From Methanococcoides methylutens (lineage in GTDB: Archaea; Halobacteriota; Methanosarcinia; Methanosarcinales; Methanosarcinaceae), in contig NZ_JRHO01000014.1 of NCBI RefSeq assembly GCF_000765475.1, forward strand, positions 1-61,573: 61,573 nt of DNA, given 5' to 3'. The notes under the pieces are model-generated. The model did no database searches. It had not been told where the DNA came from and worked only from the letters and a program-made list of their open reading frames with translations. Position numbers and translations under genes: made by a program. This document shows positions 2,163-36,533 of this stretch, in pieces; positions within the stretch are counted from its first letter, which is position 1, and every line of letters begins with the position of its first letter.

Positions 2163-5100
2163 TTGCCATCCACCAACCTTAACGATAACCAGCAAAAAGC
2201 AGTCACTTACACCAACGGTCCACTTCTTATCCTCGCAGGTCCCGGCTCAGGAAAGACATTCACCATCACAGAGAAAGTGGTCGATCTTACCGAAAAATCC
2301 CTCCTTCCTGAAAAGATACTGGCACTCACATTCTCAGAAAAAGCAGCCGGAGAGATGCAGGAAAGGATCGAGAACAAGATAGGTGTTGGAAGCGGCATCA
2401 CAGTTTCCACATTCCACTCATTCTGCAATGACCTGATACGTGAGTTCTCCCTTTACCTTGGCATAAACCAGAATGCAAAACTGATTTCAAAGGAACACTC
2501 CCACGTCTGGGGGATCAAGAACATCGACTCATTCGATTTCCAGAACCTGGCAATCCCGACACAACCATACGACCTCATCACAAGCCTGCTGGAAGGCGTC
2601 TCCCAGCTGAAGGACCACCTGATCCCACCAAAGGAACTGGCTGAATATGCAGGCAGGAAGCTGGAAGATGCCAGCATTGACGAAGGTGAAAGGGATGTCC
2701 TGCTGAAGCTGAGCGACCTTGCAAGGTTCTATGAGCATTACCAGCAGTACAAGAGTGACAACGGGTTCCTTGACTACGATGACATGATCTCCATGGCCTG
2801 CAACCTCCTTGAGACGAACGATGTTGTCAGGAACATGGTGAAGGCCAGATATGACTATGTGCTCGTGGACGAGTTCCAGGACACCAATTTTGCACAACTG
2901 TTCCTGGTTCACATGATAGCGGATGGCAATAACCTGACCTGTGTGGCTGACGATGACCAGTGTATCTACCGTTTCAGGGGAGCATATCTTGCCAACATCG
3001 AGCAATTGCAGGAATACTACCATTCCCTTGAGAAGATCCCGCTTGAGAAGAACTACAGGTCAAGCTCACAGATCGTATAGCTGTCCCAGCAGCTCATTGC
3101 GAACAACCCGCAGAGGCAGGAAAAGAACCTCACGGCCCACAATGGTGAGAAGAGCGAGGTGAAGGTTGTCAAAGCACCTGATGATGTGAGCGAGGCAGAG
3201 TGGGTCGCTGAAGAGATCACGAACACGATCAATGAAGGCGTTCGCCCAGGGGAGATCTTCATACTTACCCGAAAAAGGGCTGACGGAAAGAAGTTCAGCG
3301 AATCATTGAAGCAGAGGATGGTGCCGGTGGAATTCGTAGGCAGCCTCCAGCTGAACCGTTTCCCGGTGGTGAGGGAAGCGATGGCATACCTCCACGTGGT
3401 GGCTGATCCGTTCAACAACGGGATCGCCTTTGCAAAGATACTGTCAAGGGAAGGAGTGAGCGAGCACAACCTGCAGAAGATCAACCTTCAGGCATTGAAG
3501 ATCAGCAGAGATGACAGCGATACAGGGGACGGGATATATTCCGTGCTGCTCTACCAGCTTGATGAAATTGACATCGGCCAGAAGGACCTGATCAGGTCCA
3601 TCGTGTCCCGGCTCAATGAGCTGATCGAATACAAGAAGATCCACCTGCCATCGGATACTGTGAAGCACCTGCTGTCCGAGAAGACCGATTTCTACAGGAC
3701 ACAGCTGCAGGAGGATACACAGGCATCCAGAAGGAACATTTCCATCCTGAACTCCCTTGTGACCACTGTGGAAGACCTTGAACTTGTTGATGGCGGCAGT
3801 GAACTGGAGACCGTGGTCGAGGACCTGGAGCTGGTCTTCGGCCTAGACCTGGACGAGGGAGTGTCCAGTGATGAGGATACTGTCAAGGTGATGACGATCC
3901 ACCAGTCCAAGGGCAAGGAAGCGAAGGTGGTGTTCGTCTGCGACATGGCCACCAGACACCTTCCTCTGAACTACAGGAGAAAGGCCTTCACCGTGCCAAA
4001 GGAGCTATCAAAGGGCCGCCAGAGGGATGTGGACGAGAAGGTGCTGCACCTTGAGGAGGAAAGAAGGCTGGCCTATGTTGCCATGACAAGGGCAAAGGAA
4101 GAGCTTTACCTGGTGTTCCCTGAAAAATATGAAGGCAACAAACGGAAGGTCTCCCCCAGCGAGTTCCTCACACAACTTGAGTACACGTCAAATCCGCTGG
4201 TCGGGTATATCGAAGCAGAGCAGTTCGAAAGGAAGAGCGAGGTGGAGGACGTCTCACCCCTGATGAAGAAAAAAGACGAGTACCTCTGGATGCTCGGCAT
4301 GTATTCAAAGCAGGGACAGTTAAAGCAGGCCCTGGAATCCCTTGTGGTCCTCGCCCAGCTCAGGGAGATCGAGGCCGAAGGCAACCTGTCCGCTTTTGAT
4401 GCAAAGGATTTCCTGCAGGTCAACCCTAAGCAACCTCAGGAGCTGGAGGACCTGATCGACAACAAAATCCCGCCCCTTGTGGACCCGAACATGAGATTCT
4501 CGGCTTCAAAGATAAAGACATACCAGGACTGCCCGCTGAAATTCAAGTACGGGACAGTCCTCAACATTCCCACTCCGCAGAAGACCTATTTCCAGGTCGG
4601 TACAGATGTCCACTCCGTCTACGAACAACTGTCCCGAATGGACATGAAGGGAGAATCCATTGATATCTCCACAGCCAACCAGCTGCTGGATGACATCTGG
4701 GACCCTGCTGCCTACCCTTCCAGGACCCAGGAACAACAGGAACACGGCAAGATGAAGCAGATGATGGACTTCTGGTTCCGCTTTGAGGCCGACAATCCCA
4801 ACGAGACCGTTGCAGTGGAAGAATTCTTCGACCTTGACCTGAACGGTGCCCATTTCGGAGGGGTCATCGATAGAATAGACCGGACCCCGACAGGCGAATA
4901 CATCGTCATCGACTACAAGACCGGCAAGACCACCCTCTCAAAGAACAAGATGAAGGACGATGTCCAGCTGGCCCTCTATTGCCTGGCCGTGAAGGAGATG
5001 TACGGCAAGCTCCCGGTACAAGCCGGATTGCTTTATGTCAACCCCGAGGTCCAGGAGCTTCGTATGATGAATGTCGATGAGGAGAGGATTAGTGTTGTGG

Positions 5101-5219
5101 TTGATGGGATCAATGCTGTGGTTGCAAGGGTTTTAAAGGATGACTTTGAGGTTGAAGGGGAGCCGAATTGTTATTTCTGTGATTTTAAGGGGATCTGTGA
5201 GTGGAGGGAGGGGGAGTGA
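2163..5219 (+). CDS. UvrD/PcrA-like superfamily I helicase fused to RecB-type nuclease, with in-frame UAG
   Basis: One 1018-codon gene interrupted by a TAG at 3078-3080 (codon 306); the frame is identical on both sides. The N-terminal part has Q motif, Walker A (AGPGSGKT, residues 25-32), Walker B/motif II (VDEFQDT) and motif III (DDDQCIYRFRGA). The TAG follows motif IV (NYRSSSQIV) at a place where PcrA/UvrD homologues often have Gln or another polar residue. The rest holds motifs V/VI (TIHQSKGKEAKVVF, YVAMTRAKEELY). From about residue 779 there is a PD-(D/E)XK nuclease (GVIDRIDR, VIDYKTGK). Cysteines at QDCPLKF and NCYFCDFKGIC suggest an AddB/Cas4-like Fe-S cluster. The role is probably DNA break processing. 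The start is TTG at 2163 with GGGG upstream; a start-codon shift is possible. Under the standard code it would be called a pseudogene or two genes (2163-3080 and 3159-5219). Confidence 0.85.
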
Positions 5220-5261: not shown

Positions 5262-5966
5262 ATGAGGGGTACAAAAATAGCTCAGATATTAAAAGAACAA
5301 GATAGTCTCGATGAGGCAGGTGGCAAGAGAATCTTAGGAGGAATTATAGCAATAATCCTGGGTCTATTGACACTCTATTTCACTGAAAGTGGTCTAATAG
5401 GCTTCGGCCTTATCGTTGTAGGAATCATAGTAGTCCAGCAGGGAAATGCTTTTTGGAAAGGAGCAGATGGAGAAAATATGGTCACTAACCTTCTTGAGAA
5501 CCTGCCTTATAATTGGTCTGTACTTAACGACATGGTGGTAGGCTCTTCACAGATCGATCATATTGTAGTTTGTCCTAAAGGCGTTTACACGATTGAAACT
5601 AAGAATTATAGAGGAACAATCTATGGGAATGCTGAAAAGAAGGAATGGATGCAAGTTTTCCCTAATGGTTCAAAATATGACTTTTATAATCCAGTTAAAC
5701 AAGGCAACAAGCATTCTTTAGAATTAAGTAGATATCTTGAATCAAATGGGCTCAAAACGTGGGTTAACACCGTAGTTGTGTTCCCGAGTGACGAAGTAGA
5801 ATTGAAAGTATATTCACCAAAAACACAAGTGTTGTATCTTAAAGATGTAGCTGCATATTTTATGAATCAGAAAGATTCAATTGATCAGAATACCTGTGAT
5901 GATATTGTGAAGTGTATACAGAATTTGAATCCTGCAGAGTATGAGAACGTTGGTTACAATAATTGA
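5262..5966 (+). CDS. NERD domain protein, membrane-anchored
   Basis: A 234-residue protein with two predicted membrane segments near residues 25-60 (GGIIAIILGLLTLYF and GLIGFGLIVVGIIVV), followed by a nuclease-related domain (NERD). The visible NERD signature is GADGENMV, then QIDHIVVCPKGVYTIETKNYRG, containing the D-x(n)-E-x-K nuclease-like core (D at DHIVV, ETKN). NERD proteins are thought to act on DNA and are often near helicases. Here it follows the UvrD-RecB gene by 42 bases and may be co-transcribed with it. The substrate is unknown. The gene ends in TGA. Confidence 0.8.
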   Translation: MRGTKIAQILKEQDSLDEAGGKRILGGIIAIILGLLTLYFTESGLIGFGLIVVGIIVVQQGNAFWKGADGENMVTNLLENLPYNWSVLNDMVVGSSQIDHIVVCPKGVYTIETKNYRGTIYGNAEKKEWMQVFPNGSKYDFYNPVKQGNKHSLELSRYLESNGLKTWVNTVVVFPSDEVELKVYSPKTQVLYLKDVAAYFMNQKDSIDQNTCDDIVKCIQNLNPAEYENVGYNN

Positions 5967-12635: not shown

Positions 12636-14588
12636 TTATTCACTGATGATCTCGTCATCAACTGGTATCGTAAAAGTGAACTTGCTGCCTTTTCCAACTT
12701 CGCTTTCAACCCGGACATTCCCGCCATGCATTTCCACAAACTTCTTAACAAGAGCAAGACCAAGCCCTGTACCACCATATTCACTTGAAGTTGAGGAATC
12801 CACCTGAATGAAAGGATAGAACAATTTACCCCGGTCTTTTTGTGAGATGCCTACGCCAGTATCTTCTACAAAAATAGAAATTAACTTGTCAGACCTTTCC
12901 ACCCCTATTGTCACAGAACCACCCTGATCGGTGAACTTGATCGCATTGCTTACAAGATTATAGAGTATCTGCTTGAGCTTCAATGGATCTGCCACTATAG
13001 AAAAATCTTCCATGTTAATGCTGTATTTCAGTTCAATATTCTTCTTTTTTGCAAGAGGCATCATGGTCGACGTTATCCCATTGATGATAGCAAGAATGGC
13101 AAATTTTTCAGGGAAAAGCTCCATCTTACCAGCTTCGATCTTTGAAATATCAAGAAGATCATTGACTATTTCTAAAAGATGTTTGCCGTTTTTAATAACA
13201 TTTGACAGATATTTTTTTTGGATGTCACTTAAAGTACCAAAATTCTCATTGTACAGAACATCCGAGAACCCTATGATCGAATTGAGAGGAGTCCTCAGCT
13301 CATGATTCATATTTGCTATAAATTCGGTCTTGGCCCGATTGGCATTTTCAGCAGCGATCTTTGCAGCTATAAGCATATCTTCAGCATTTTTGCATTCAAG
13401 ACCTGCACCTATGATCTGAGAAACCATATTAAGAATATCGAGATCTTCTTTTGTCCACTCCCCGGCATTTAGGACATCATCAAGACCAAGGTAACCTATC
13501 AATTGATTATTCATATACAAAGGCAAAACTATCAGAGATCTTATATCCTACATTTCAAGGATCTCTTTCTCTGCAGACGCCTCTTCTGTCAAAGTTGAAA
13601 CATCTGTAATGTGGATCAACTCGTCTTTATGGAGTTTGTCCATCCACCAGGGAAACATACTTACCGGAAGATCCTGAAGGCTGTCCTTTTGTGGAGTAAC
13701 ACCCACAGGACAGTATTCATGAGTATTATTCATCCATTCCCCGTCATTACTGAATCTAAAAATGTAACTTCTGCTGCACCCACATAATTCACAGATCTTT
13801 TGAAGAGCTACATTAATAGTATCATCAATATTTTTAGGAGATACGAACATGGAAGAAATAGAAGATATAGTTCTTTGAATTTCGAGCTTTCGTTCGATAA
13901 GCAGGTTTGCTTTTTTGATCTCAGTAATATCCACAAAAGAAGCCATCATGCAAATCGGATCCCCTAGCTCATTAGATATAACGTTAGCTGATAAATTTAC
14001 TGAAAAATCAGTACCATCTTTTTTTCTGGCAAGTAATTCTCCAGTCCAGCTACCTTCAGAGAATAATTCGTTTTTTGCTTGTTTTGCTATGCTTTTATCC
14101 TACCACAATTCTACAGGAGTTCTTCCAAGAATCTCTTTTTCGTCATCATAACCCCACAATTCAAGAAAAGAAGGATTAACATAGGTAAGATTCCCTTCAG
14201 GATCAGCAAGAAAAATAGCATTGATCGATGAATCGATAGCCTTCTCTTTTACTAAAAGATCTTTTTCTGCGTCCTTAAGATTTGAAATATCTATAAAGCT
14301 CTCGATAAAATATAGATCGTCACCCTTCTCAAACTTCTTGACCGTTTTCAAAATTGGAATTGGTTCACCCTTATAATTTAAAACTACACATTCAGATCGG
14401 TCTAAAATTTGTCCAGGGTGAGCAACAGGACATTGACTGGCCTCAGCGGGGCAGATATATTTATGACACACGTTACCAATGATCTCTTCTTTTGGCAGTC
14501 CGATCATGTTTGCAGCTGTTTCGTTCGCATCAACTATAACATGATCTTTACTATCAATGATCACAACACCCGAGATAATTGAATCCAA
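12636..14588 (-). CDS. PAS-PAS-GAF histidine kinase with two in-frame UAG codons
   Basis: A ~650-codon kinase in one frame with TAG at 14100-14102 (codon 163) and 13548-13550 (codon 347). Order: PAS with a Cys-containing insert ([20 protein letters not shown]); a second PAS ([19 protein letters not shown] ... [18 protein letters not shown]) ending [13 protein letters not shown]; a GAF domain ([13 protein letters not shown] ... [19 protein letters not shown]); HisKA ([18 protein letters not shown]) and HATPase ([27 protein letters not shown]). In GAF domains the residue before IRS is very often Gln, so CAG-to-TAG is likely. The start is unclear: TTG at 14588, or an ATA at 14619-14621 which is correctly spaced behind GGGGGA, where the tandem paralogue has ATG. 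The standard code would split it into three fragments. Confidence 0.82.
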
Positions 14589-30962: not shown

Positions 30963-33900
30963 TTATCTCATCTGTTCATCTTCTTCATCCTTCCTCCTCT
31001 TCCAGAGGACGAAGAAGAAAATTCCCAGAATTCCTGCGATCACAGGAAGCAGCCACATTGAACTTGTAACTCTTTCTTCTGTAGAATCACCTAAATGTCC
31101 GCTGTAGGTTGTGGTGTCAACATCCTCACTTTCCACAGGGAACATTGCATCCATACCAAATGGGAGCGCTCCTACTGCGAACTCTGAGAATCCCGGAGTC
31201 CTCACTGTGAAGAAATAATAGTCTTCATCCACTGAAGAGGAAACAACTTCAAGCACTTCCCATTCAACAGACTCAGCGCCGCAGTGAGTCACAGTTGTGG
31301 TGGTTGGATCAAGTTCATTCTGCTCATACCATGCTACAGGAACACGGATGTGGATCAGTGCACTTTCCGTACTTCCCGGACTACTGGTGTCAATATTGAT
31401 GTATCCATAGACACAAGCTCCATTGCCTACTGCAAATGATATGTCAGCAGGTTCTTCCTAAGAGGATGATGAGCTCTGAGTGATGGTCACATCCATGTCA
31501 TCGACATCCCTACCCAGATTAATGTCCACACCGGTGACCATACATCCGGCATTCCTGAGCTGTTCAAGTGTATCGATTTCAACGGTATCTCCTGACATAA
31601 CATGTCCCACATCAAACTCCCCGGAAGCCTCAAGTGCTGAGCAGGCAGCTTCATTTTCCTGCTTTTCCTTCAGATCCTGGAAGTAGTAGTAGTTTGGAAG
31701 ACCGTCGTCATCAGATGATCCACCCACAGTGCTTGTCTTAACAGTTGTGAAGTTACTGATCAGGGAAGAGTTGTTGAAACCAAAGATGTCGTAGCTGACT
31801 ACCTTATAGTAGTACAGTGTTTCATCCTGAAGTCCGGTTAGCATGATACTGTGATCTGTTCCAAATACTGCTTTTGAAATATTCATAGAGACATTTGAAT
31901 CGAGACCATAGTATACCGTGGAATTGGCAGCTTCATTCGTCTTCCAGGAAATGGTAGCTGACCTGTCTGTCACCTGTGATGCAGTCACATTGGTTATTTC
32001 CATATCGATTGCATCAATACCATAGGCAATAGGACCGATCGGAACAATATTACCTCCAAGATCCTCAATAGTCGCATTCAGATAATACATTCCGGATGGC
32101 AGTGATGTGAAGTTCACAGAAAGACTGCCGGGGTATGATGTGGAATTGAACAATCCTGTACTGTTGTAAAGGTAGATCGTAACATTCCTTATGCCCATAT
32201 TATCAGATGCTGTTACATTGGCAAATACCCAGTCCTGACTGAAATTACCTGAAGGTAGCACATCATCATTGAATACAATTACCGGATCGGTCGTATCAAG
32301 CAGGATAGATCTTGTTTCAGTTTCATTGGTGTTACCGGCATAGTCCCAGACACTTGCGTTCAGCTGGTAGTAACCATCAGCAAGACCGCTGAAAGTAACG
32401 GAATAAGTTGGATCCGAGCTTATGCTGGAATCAACAACTCCACTGCTGTTGTACAGGTAGATTCCGGAAGCGTTCAGCCACATGTCACTCACACTTATGT
32501 TACCAACAATGTAGCTCTGGCTGAAATTGCCCTCATCAGTTGTCTCATCATTGAAATCGATCGCAGGTTTAACAGTATCCAGTGTGATCTCCAGAGTAGA
32601 GGTAGTGTTGGTGTTACCTGCAAGATCAACTACGGTTGCATTCAGGTAATAGACACCATCAGCAAGACCTGTGAATTCGTTGGAAAGGTTACCATTACCT
32701 TCGGTTGTACTGGAATCCACAAGTGAACTCTCATTGTACAGGGATATTGTAAGGCTGGAATAGCCGAAAACATCGAAGGATGTAACGTTAGCAAAGATAC
32801 TGGTCTGGCTGAAGTTACCTTCAGCAGTTGTATCCTCGTTGAATACAATTACCGGATCGGTCGTATCAAGCAGGATAGCTCTTGTTTCTGTATACTTGAT
32901 ATTGCCTGCAATATCCCATGCACTTGCGTTCAACTGGTAGTAACCATCTGCTAGTGATGTGAAGTTTACGGAATGTGTTAGATCAGAACTGATGCTTGAA
33001 TCTTTAAGACCCGTCTCGTTGTAGAGATAGATAGCAGAAGCATTAAGTGAAACGTCACTCACGCTTATGTTACCAACGATATAGTTCTGGCTGAAATTGC
33101 CTTCATCGGTTGTCTCATCATTGAAATCGATGAACGGAGCATTGTTGTCTATTGTTACATCAATAACATCGATTGCACAGAACTTTTCAGCTGATTCGTT
33201 CTCGCATGCTTCCCAGATAATATTGTAGCTGCCATCTGCAAACTGAGTGCTGTCAATATCAACAGAGAGGTTGTTCTGGAAGAGACCTTCATAAGAGAGA
33301 ACATTTCCTGTAATGTTGCTCAGGCTTACATTGGACAGAAATGCATCCCCGTTGTTGTCAGTAACAGATGCATTGACATAGAAAGTACCAGAAATATTGG
33401 CATCCGGTTCAGGTGCAATTATAGCCACATGTGGTGCTGTATTAATAGAAGTTATATCGAATTCACTTATCTCAAACCCGGCAAGTACCTCATCGATCTG
33501 AACAAGCTCTTCACCATCTTCCACAGTTACCCACAGGTTGAAATCATATGTTACACCCGGTGTCAGATCATCAGTAGTGTAATAGATGAACGCATTACCG
33601 ATATCATCGTTTGACATCAGGAATCTCTCCTTCTTGGAGTAACAATCCGGTACCTGAGTACAGTTGATGAAATATGTCGGTGTCTGAGAGCCGGAAGCTG
33701 AACTGAAAGAGCTGGTCATTGCAAGGAAATAACCGGTACCGTTATAGACGGTCATGCTTTCGGTTGCAAGCAGATGTGTTCCAGGTCCAAGTTTTTTGTT
33801 ACTTGAAGTGTCAGTGGACTCATTGGAAACAGAAAAGCTACTTACCTCATATCCTTCCAGGTCCCCCAGGTCAAAGTCAAGTACCTTTCCAACCACATTG

Positions 33901-36533
33901 GTAGTAGCAGCATCTGCAATATTTCTGGAGAAAAGACTGTAGTTCTTGTTCATTTCTTCATTCCGATCCACGAAAATACCGGAAACAGACCCTGTATCAG
34001 AACCGTCTTCCAGATGCCTTGACCATGATGTGGAAATGTCAACTGAGTTGAGATCCTGGTAATAATACTGCAAGGCTGTTTCCAGATCAGAACTGAGAGA
34101 ATACTTACCTATCACAAATGTACCGGATTCAACACTCTTTTCCACAGACCAATTAAATGCGTCATCAAATGTAGTCGAGGAGTGACTATAGCTCACATCC
34201 GTAAGCTGGTCACGAACCTGGTTTCCTTCTGCCGTAACAAATTTCAGGAGAGTTATGTCAATATCATTGACCTCTACCGCACCATTGCCTGTTCTGTTGA
34301 ACTCATAAGTAATATTATGTGTTCCGGAAGAAGGAATCGTAAAGCTTATAGGTCTTGTTCCTGTTGAACCTTCGTCAATATTTGATTTATCTTTACTGAG
34401 AGACCTCATCTTTTCTTCAAGCACAGGTTCTGGGGCACCATCAACATAGATCCTGACCCATACATCATTATCCAGAGCTCCGGTAAGTTTCACAATGTTC
34501 ATGGTGCTCATAAGGGTAAGGTCAACATTATCCATTGATGTGTTAAACTCAACATTTATACCTTCAACAAAATCAGAACTTGAAAAAGTAAAGTCAGTTT
34601 CATTGAGTGGAACTGCGAAGAGGGAGGTCATTGGGGGTTTTGGAACAAATTCTGCAGGACTGTTCAGGAGGTATGGATAACCATTATTGGTCGTTCCACC
34701 GATAGCCCAGACCGAAGTAAAATCCCATCCAACGAATGTTGATTGCTTTTTCATGTCAGCAGTGTTCCTACCTTCACCACCAGAGCTTGTGGTTTGCCCG
34801 GATGTCACATTATTCCAGTAACTGTTTGTGACAGGTAGTTCAAAATTAGCTCCTACAAGACCACCGACGTTTGAACCAGCACCAGTCACAAAACCAGTGG
34901 AGTAACTCCGATCAACAGATCCTCCTCCAAGATTACCAACAAGACCTCCAGCTCTACTATCAGTCCCTCCACCAGTAACGTTACAGGTGGAATAACTCTG
35001 ATTTATAATACCTCCAACATTCCAACCAACAAAACCCCCAATATCCACAAAACCAATGACGTTACCACCAGAATAACTTAATAAAATATTTCCTTCATTA
35101 TAAGCTGTAATACCGCCCACATAATAGTCTTCAGAGCTTACATTTCCATTAAAACTACTACTAGTTATGTTACCTGCATTGGCTCCTATAAGTCCACCTG
35201 TATATGTGTATGTACCAGTCACATTACCAATGGCAGAACTTTGGTTTATCTCTCCAATATTTAATCCAGCAAGAGCTCCAGTACAATACTTGCCGGTAAT
35301 ATTTACATTTACTAAACCAATATTCCTAATAACTGCTTCATTAGTTGCCCATCCAAATAATCCAACATAGTCTTCAGTTGGTCTGTAAATGTAAAGATCA
35401 TTTATCTCATATCCATTTCCGTCTAAAGTTCCGCTGAACTGAATACTAGGATCTTCTGAATCATATCCTATTGGATCAAATCCCCCGCCCAACTCAATAG
35501 TTTCACTGGCATCGATATCATTAATCAATGTGTAGTTTGCTGACAGGTCAGTGCTCATATTCTGAAGCTGCTCAACTGTCGAGATCTGATATGGATTCCC
35601 AGCAGAACCGTCTCCGCCTGCAAAAAAACTTACAGGTTCAGAGAATGTCCGGAGGAATGGATAACCATTATTGGTAATTCCGTCTATAGCCCACTCAGAA
35701 GTAAAGTTCCAACCAACATAGGTAGATTGGTCTTCCATCTGAGATGTTGTTTTGCCTGTACCACCACCACTTGTAACTTGACCGGAAGTTTGGGTATCCC
35801 AATAACTATTGGTGACAGTATAATCATTTTCTCCAACAAGGCCACCTAGATAATTATTGCCAGTAACATATCCAGTAGAATAACTTTCATTAATAGTTCC
35901 GTAATCTGGATCAAAATACCGATTATCTCCAGCAAGGCCACCTACATAATCAGAACCAGTAACATTGCTCATGGAATAACTTTGATAAATAGAACCAAAA
36001 TTACTCCCCACAAGACCACCCACAGATAAATCACCACTGATATTGCCTGTAGAATAGCTCTGTGTAACAAAACCATCATTCATTCCAGCAAGACCACCTA
36101 CCTCATAATGACCAGTAATACTCACATCTTCAAGGCCAATATTTTTGACCACTGCAACAGAATCCACATATCCAAAAAGACCAACATCATCTGTGGTTGG
36201 TCTATTGATGTAAAGACCAGTGATAACAAAACCATCACCATCAAAAGTGCCTGTGAATTGATTATCCAAATCACCGATAGGAGTGAAGCCTGCGTTACCA
36301 TTCCAGCCACTGGTGACACTGGCATCGATATCATTGATCAATATATAGTTTGCTGACAGGTCAGTGCTCATATCCTGAAGCTGCTCTACTGTCGAGATCT
36401 GATATGGATCCGCGACAGTACCGTCTCCACCTGCAAATGTGGCTGCACTCGCAGGAGATGAGATCATCATACCGATTAATATCAGCAATAAACTAAGAAA
36501 AAGTGTATTATTCGATCTTTTTATAAATATCAT
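30963..36533 (-). CDS. Giant cell-surface protein: GLUG repeats, Ig-like repeats, FN3, PGF-pre-PGF; one in-frame UAG
   Basis: An 1856-codon gene with TAG at 31458-31460 (codon 1692) and TAA at 30963. A signal peptide (cleavage after SPASA) leads into two GLUG-type blocks, each opening AGGDG ... PYQISTVEQLQ and carrying repeats like VGGLVG-N-SYSTG-VTG. A ~400-residue middle domain follows, then four Ig-like repeats with T-EGNFSQ, then a fibronectin III-like domain (ATISWKTNEAANSTVYYG). The tail before the TAG has VDINLGRDVDDMDVTI; after it, EEPADISFAVGNGACVYGY and VRTPGFSEFAVGA complete a PGF-pre-PGF domain. A membrane helix (LLPVIAGILGIFFFVLW) and RRKDEEDEQ end it. The complete C-terminal domain straddles the TAG, so readthrough is needed for anchoring. 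Probably an S-layer-associated adhesin. Confidence 0.85.

Follow-up and report, generated by a model that had tools for sequence, protein, structure and literature searches.

The methylamine methyltransferases MtmB, MtbB and MttB carry pyrrolysine (Pyl), the 22nd amino acid, encoded by UAG, as a conserved catalytic residue. Archaea with a 'Pyl code', in which every TAG codon is reportedly translated as pyrrolysine, are said to have been described by Kivenson et al. in Science in 2025. The tRNA-His guanylyltransferase of M. acetivorans, Thg1, is the proven precedent for pyrrolysine outside methyltransferases and transposases (PMC2933860); the amino acid was physically detected in this enzyme, is not needed for its function and was acquired by neutral evolution, according to Heinemann et al. 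(2009) as cited in PMC2933860 and PMC3639795. In Methanosarcina UAG serves as both a stop and a sense codon, with reporter read-through of 20–30% (PMC2933860).

The DNA analysed here, a window of 61,573 nucleotides from Methanococcoides methylutens, lies at the start of contig 14 in a genome of 2.5 Mb. The frame at 2163-5219 (plus strand), together with its Pfam matches and orthologues, identifies a UvrD/Rep-type helicase with a C-terminal PD-(D/E)XK nuclease. The frame opens with TTG at 2163; the five closest orthologues shown also begin with TTG, and the two more diverged ones have ATG at or adjacent to this position. The frame closes with TGA at 5217-5219. It spans 1018 codons once an in-frame TAG (3078-3080, codon 306) is read through, and 712 codons remain between this TAG and the terminator, as the first-pass annotation of the window had stated. 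The 1018-residue product matches the UvrD N-terminal domain (UvrD-helicase, residues 6-286), UvrD_C (292-652) and PDDEXK_1 (778-1013), all three above the curated Pfam cut-off, which places the protein in the SF1A UvrD/Rep superfamily and among the PDDEXK nucleases; the domains are intact on both sides of the TAG and the matches continue across codon 306. The protein thus has the SF1 helicase core common to PcrA, Rep and UvrD and the C-terminal PD-(D/E)XK nuclease found in AddA and RecB. It differs from all five, however, in being a single-chain archaeal helicase-nuclease whose scores against the respective equivalogs are far under the NCBIfam cut-offs, the best being 351.6 bits against pcrA where 911.2 are required. 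The gene 3' of the helicase (5262-5966, plus strand) weakly matches the N-terminal regions of the PglW and MAD6 defence kinases.

Directly 5' of the TAG is a conserved stretch, IPLEKNYRSSSQIV (3036-3077, plus strand), that corresponds to helicase motif IV (NYRS). The earlier placement of the TAG at motif IV needs qualification: the codon does follow the NYRS stretch directly but, being eight residues past the arginine of the motif, it lies on the stretch after the motif and outside it. In the 111 genomes of the family, orthologues that align readily number about 30, and among these a stop at codon 306 occurs in this genome only. All eight close Methanococcoides orthologues (86-95% identity), each open over the same frame, have Gln at this position, specified by CAG in six and by CAA in one of the seven whose codon was read. 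More distant orthologues display Gln, Glu, Asp, Asn or Lys, while the corresponding position holds Gln in PcrA and Lys in Rep. The ancestral state is Gln (CAG), from which TAG is one C-to-T transition away, in accord with the initial proposal that homologues often have Gln or a similar residue here and that CAG lies a single change from TAG. By alignment, position 306 is permissive for residue identity, and this variability after motif IV suggests that Pyl would probably be near-neutral at the site. The helicase UAG is not conserved in orthologues, as it is at methyltransferase-type sites, a property that neutral cases such as Thg1 do not require; as the TAG is private, the codon's own conservation lends no support to its reading as sense. 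The motif around the TAG was not found in viral contigs.

The genome encodes a complete pyl cassette in which pylT (anticodon CTA) adjoins pylS, pylB, pylC and pylD, followed by an MtbA-like methyltransferase gene. PylS, PylB, PylC and PylD each score far above the NCBIfam cut-off. Two sequence features of a genetically encoded pyrrolysine protein are present, namely a UAG within a conserved, intact frame and a host with pylT(CUA), pylS and pylBCD. The genome's own MtbB and MttB contain the known classical internal TAG, and the mtmB copies are split or cut by contig ends. The UAG codon and the decoding machinery are common to these methyltransferases and the helicase, whereas the Pyl residue is catalytic and conserved in the former and the helicase site is, judged by alignment, variable and non-catalytic. 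Among 46 tRNA loci no CUA-anticodon tRNA was found other than pylT, one weak locus (contig 10, 174374-174444, plus strand; 32 bits) being typed not reliably and only as a low-scoring Cys candidate. The two tRNA-Gln have the anticodons TTG and CTG, and two proteins matched the release-factor N-terminal domain. A search for a PYLIS-like element in the 100 nt after the TAG revealed no unusually stable RNA fold (z 0.23; 107 of 200 shuffles fold equally well); such a fold is not required for UAG decoding.

Taken with the data below, the helicase TAG is very probably a pyrrolysine sense codon in a working helicase-nuclease gene, the result of a near-neutral CAG-to-TAG change that leaves a full-length product. 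A C-to-T transition on the organism's own lineage would have converted the CAG (Gln) codon to TAG, and Pyl-tRNA(CUA), with pyrrolysine built by PylBCD and charged by PylS, would read UAG without a special signal. The predicted product is a 1018-residue protein with Pyl306, possibly accompanied by some 305-residue product through competing termination, and Pyl306, in the variable region that follows motif IV, would probably be near-neutral for the enzyme. From the sequence we infer that codon 306 is translated, that the residue is Pyl and that the change was neutral. The predicted tryptic peptide across codon 306 is SSSQIV-Pyl-LSQQLIANNPQR, the Pyl residue having a mass of about 237.15 Da.

The first-pass annotation regarded pyrrolysine in a DNA repair enzyme as unusual. 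The complete pyl system makes such a residue plausible, and the case is not singular, as in-frame TAGs also occur in other genes, among them those of histidine kinases, a surface protein and CcmF-like and TatD-like proteins. The window contains four in-frame TAGs in three genes. Besides the helicase, these are a sensor histidine kinase with PAS, GAF, HisKA and HATPase_c domains (12636-14588, minus strand; 650 codons from the first listed start, in a stop-to-stop frame to 14624) and a 1856-codon surface protein with GLUG, Big and fn3-like domains (30963-36533, minus strand). The kinase has two TAGs, at codon 163 (14100-14102) and codon 347 (13548-13550), both of which are CAG in five congeners. 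The TAG of the surface protein (31458-31460, minus strand) recurs at the equivalent position in two other species, G020 and G016 (M. alaskense; protein 55% identity), and a conserved C-terminal membrane anchor lies 3' of it. Elsewhere on contig 14, a gene encoding a CcmF-like protein with a CcmF_C domain (218124-219134, minus strand) contains a TAG that seven Methanococcoides genomes share, at identities down to 71%; three others have His there. A TatD-like hydrolase gene (309763-310614, plus strand) has a private TAG 25 codons before its end, at a position occupied by Glu in ten congeners, and a second PAS/GAF histidine kinase gene (772789-774879, plus strand) has an in-frame TAG in common with G019. 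The strongest evidence that these organisms read TAG as sense is its persistence across species in such genes, flanked on either side by conserved protein; this evidence would extend to the helicase through the common decoding machinery.

The initial stop scan was swamped by antisense shadow frames, most of which fell away once frames were filtered by dN/dS and screened for overlap with other frames. Frames rejected in this way include 281018-282088 of G019, overlapped by a NifH-like gene on the opposite strand, 247321-248079 of G019, which overlaps an OMP decarboxylase gene, and, in M. methylutens, 520374-521474 and 674552-675628, which overlap a His biosynthesis gene and a CobW-like gene, respectively. 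A TAG of G019 at the start of 669241-672099 was set aside because its position precedes the ATG used in M. methylutens. A phosphopantetheinyl-transferase-like frame of 229 codons (contig 14, 100545-101231) with TAG for CAG was left out of the counts on account of its high dN/dS (0.31).

The rarity of TAG as a terminator is consistent with its use as sense. A survey of 800 kb of contig 14, compared with G019, showed that conserved genes end in TGA (259), TAA (212) or TAG (2 of 473), a further six being unclear; in both TAG-ended genes a TGA follows, within 3 and 24 codons. Since UAG is seemingly read as Pyl in many genes and is almost never a stop, the helicase gene is most likely unbroken, its UAG a recent and harmless change to sense. 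The near absence of TAG terminators and the many internal TAGs resemble the pattern reported for Pyl code archaea, although pylB of this genome (L179:4457-5590, minus strand) still ends in TAG. This TAG is one base ahead of pylC, and reading on would add 43 codons up to a TGA. It is possible that it reflects feedback or a true UAG stop, and UAG may thus still be able to terminate translation, so that its reassignment may be incomplete. In M. burtonii and other organisms, too, pylB is reported to end in TAG (PMC2933860). The TAG end of pylB, together with the partial read-through in Methanosarcina, makes partial termination at codon 306 of the helicase possible.

It could be argued that the gene is a young pseudogene, in which a recent nonsense mutation ends the product at codon 305 and decay is not yet visible. 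Termination after residue 305 would yield the N-terminal helicase portion alone, with the nuclease missing. The private nature of the TAG is consistent with this explanation, as is the view that the helicase is dispensable in the genus, since G017 is without a full-length orthologue and has a 55-codon remnant among its matches. The 3 kb gene, however, contains no second lesion besides the TAG of the kind that marks a pseudogene, and the decay in close relatives that would have pointed the same way was looked for and is absent, their copies of the frame being uninterrupted. In the comparison with G019, dN/dS of the helicase is 0.06 before the TAG and 0.08 after it. On the organism's own branch the region after the TAG has accumulated 13 nonsynonymous and 18 synonymous changes, where 71-77% nonsynonymous changes are expected under neutrality (p 2e-5 to 6e-4), demonstrating that purifying selection on this branch persists beyond the TAG; what the test detects is constraint over most of the branch and not the age of the TAG, and a nonsense mutation of very recent date would be compatible with it. 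The corresponding ratio on the G019 branch is 5:20, and the slight excess of replacement changes on the own branch, in the direction expected of a pseudogene, is non-significant (p 0.09); there may have been mild recent relaxation. Open frames in the congeners and purifying selection after the TAG nevertheless put the helicase frame beyond chance. In addition, wherever a well-supported gene of this genome has a private internal nonsense codon, that codon is TAG (helicase, one; kinase, two; TatD-like gene, one), never TAA or TGA, although only ~43% of the mutational opportunity yields TAG. The tally, four own events in three genes (~0.035 at 43% each), leaves out a few short, unassigned frames with TAA or TGA differences and used filters picked post hoc, so that it is supporting evidence only. 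As the tRNA and the whole pathway for decoding UAG are present, the helicase TAG probably does not act as a complete stop, and the young pseudogene is improbable.

There is a similarly slim chance that Pyl306 has a function, either by linking the helicase-nuclease to pyrrolysine supply, such that the full-length protein is made only when Pyl is, or by altering the action of the enzyme. A conditional switch giving truncated protein when pyrrolysine is scarce and the full helicase-nuclease only during methylamine growth is very unlikely. Growth-substrate dependence is reported for Acetohalobium arabaticum (PMC8211752), and the partial stop function of UAG in Methanosarcina described above would permit a switch; the congeners, however, are without the TAG, and hence there is no conserved regulation, while the near absence of TAG terminators suggests efficient decoding. 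An error of sequencing or assembly for CAG in the draft genome is just as hard to sustain: one assembly of the species was examined and the difference is a single base at an ancestral CAG, yet errors would strike all codons equally, whereas the window holds four in-frame TAGs, one of them conserved in other assemblies. Finally, a suppressor tRNA that inserts glutamine or another standard residue at UAG is almost certainly not the explanation, for although Gln is the residue of relatives at three of the four private TAGs, pylT is the sole CUA tRNA identified among the 46 loci (the weak contig 10 locus aside), the tRNA-Gln anticodons are TTG and CTG, and the TatD-like site replaces Glu while the CcmF-like TAG aligns with His, Ser and Thr, so there is no Gln rule.

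With pyrrolysine as the preferred reading of codon 306, the helicase case is, by analogy, similar to the Pyl of M. acetivorans Thg1 and is not exceptional within this genome. Both genes have a species-private in-frame UAG, do not encode methyltransferases and reside in pyl-encoding methanogens; the protein families differ, and the Pyl detected physically in Thg1 is a predicted residue in the helicase. The helicase-nuclease would join the few likely pyrrolysine proteins outside the methyltransferases, and with its neighbours it suggests that a former stop codon is spreading as an ordinary sense codon through single-step changes of CAG and GAG at variable sites that tolerate them. Genes of this type are truncated or split by standard annotation. 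G019 has private TAGs of its own, in a SepCysS/SepSecS-like gene (orthologue of 651838-652992 on contig 14 of M. methylutens, where the codon is CAG) and in a gene for an NADH-dehydrogenase-like membrane subunit (orthologue of 448817-449860, where the codon is ATT).
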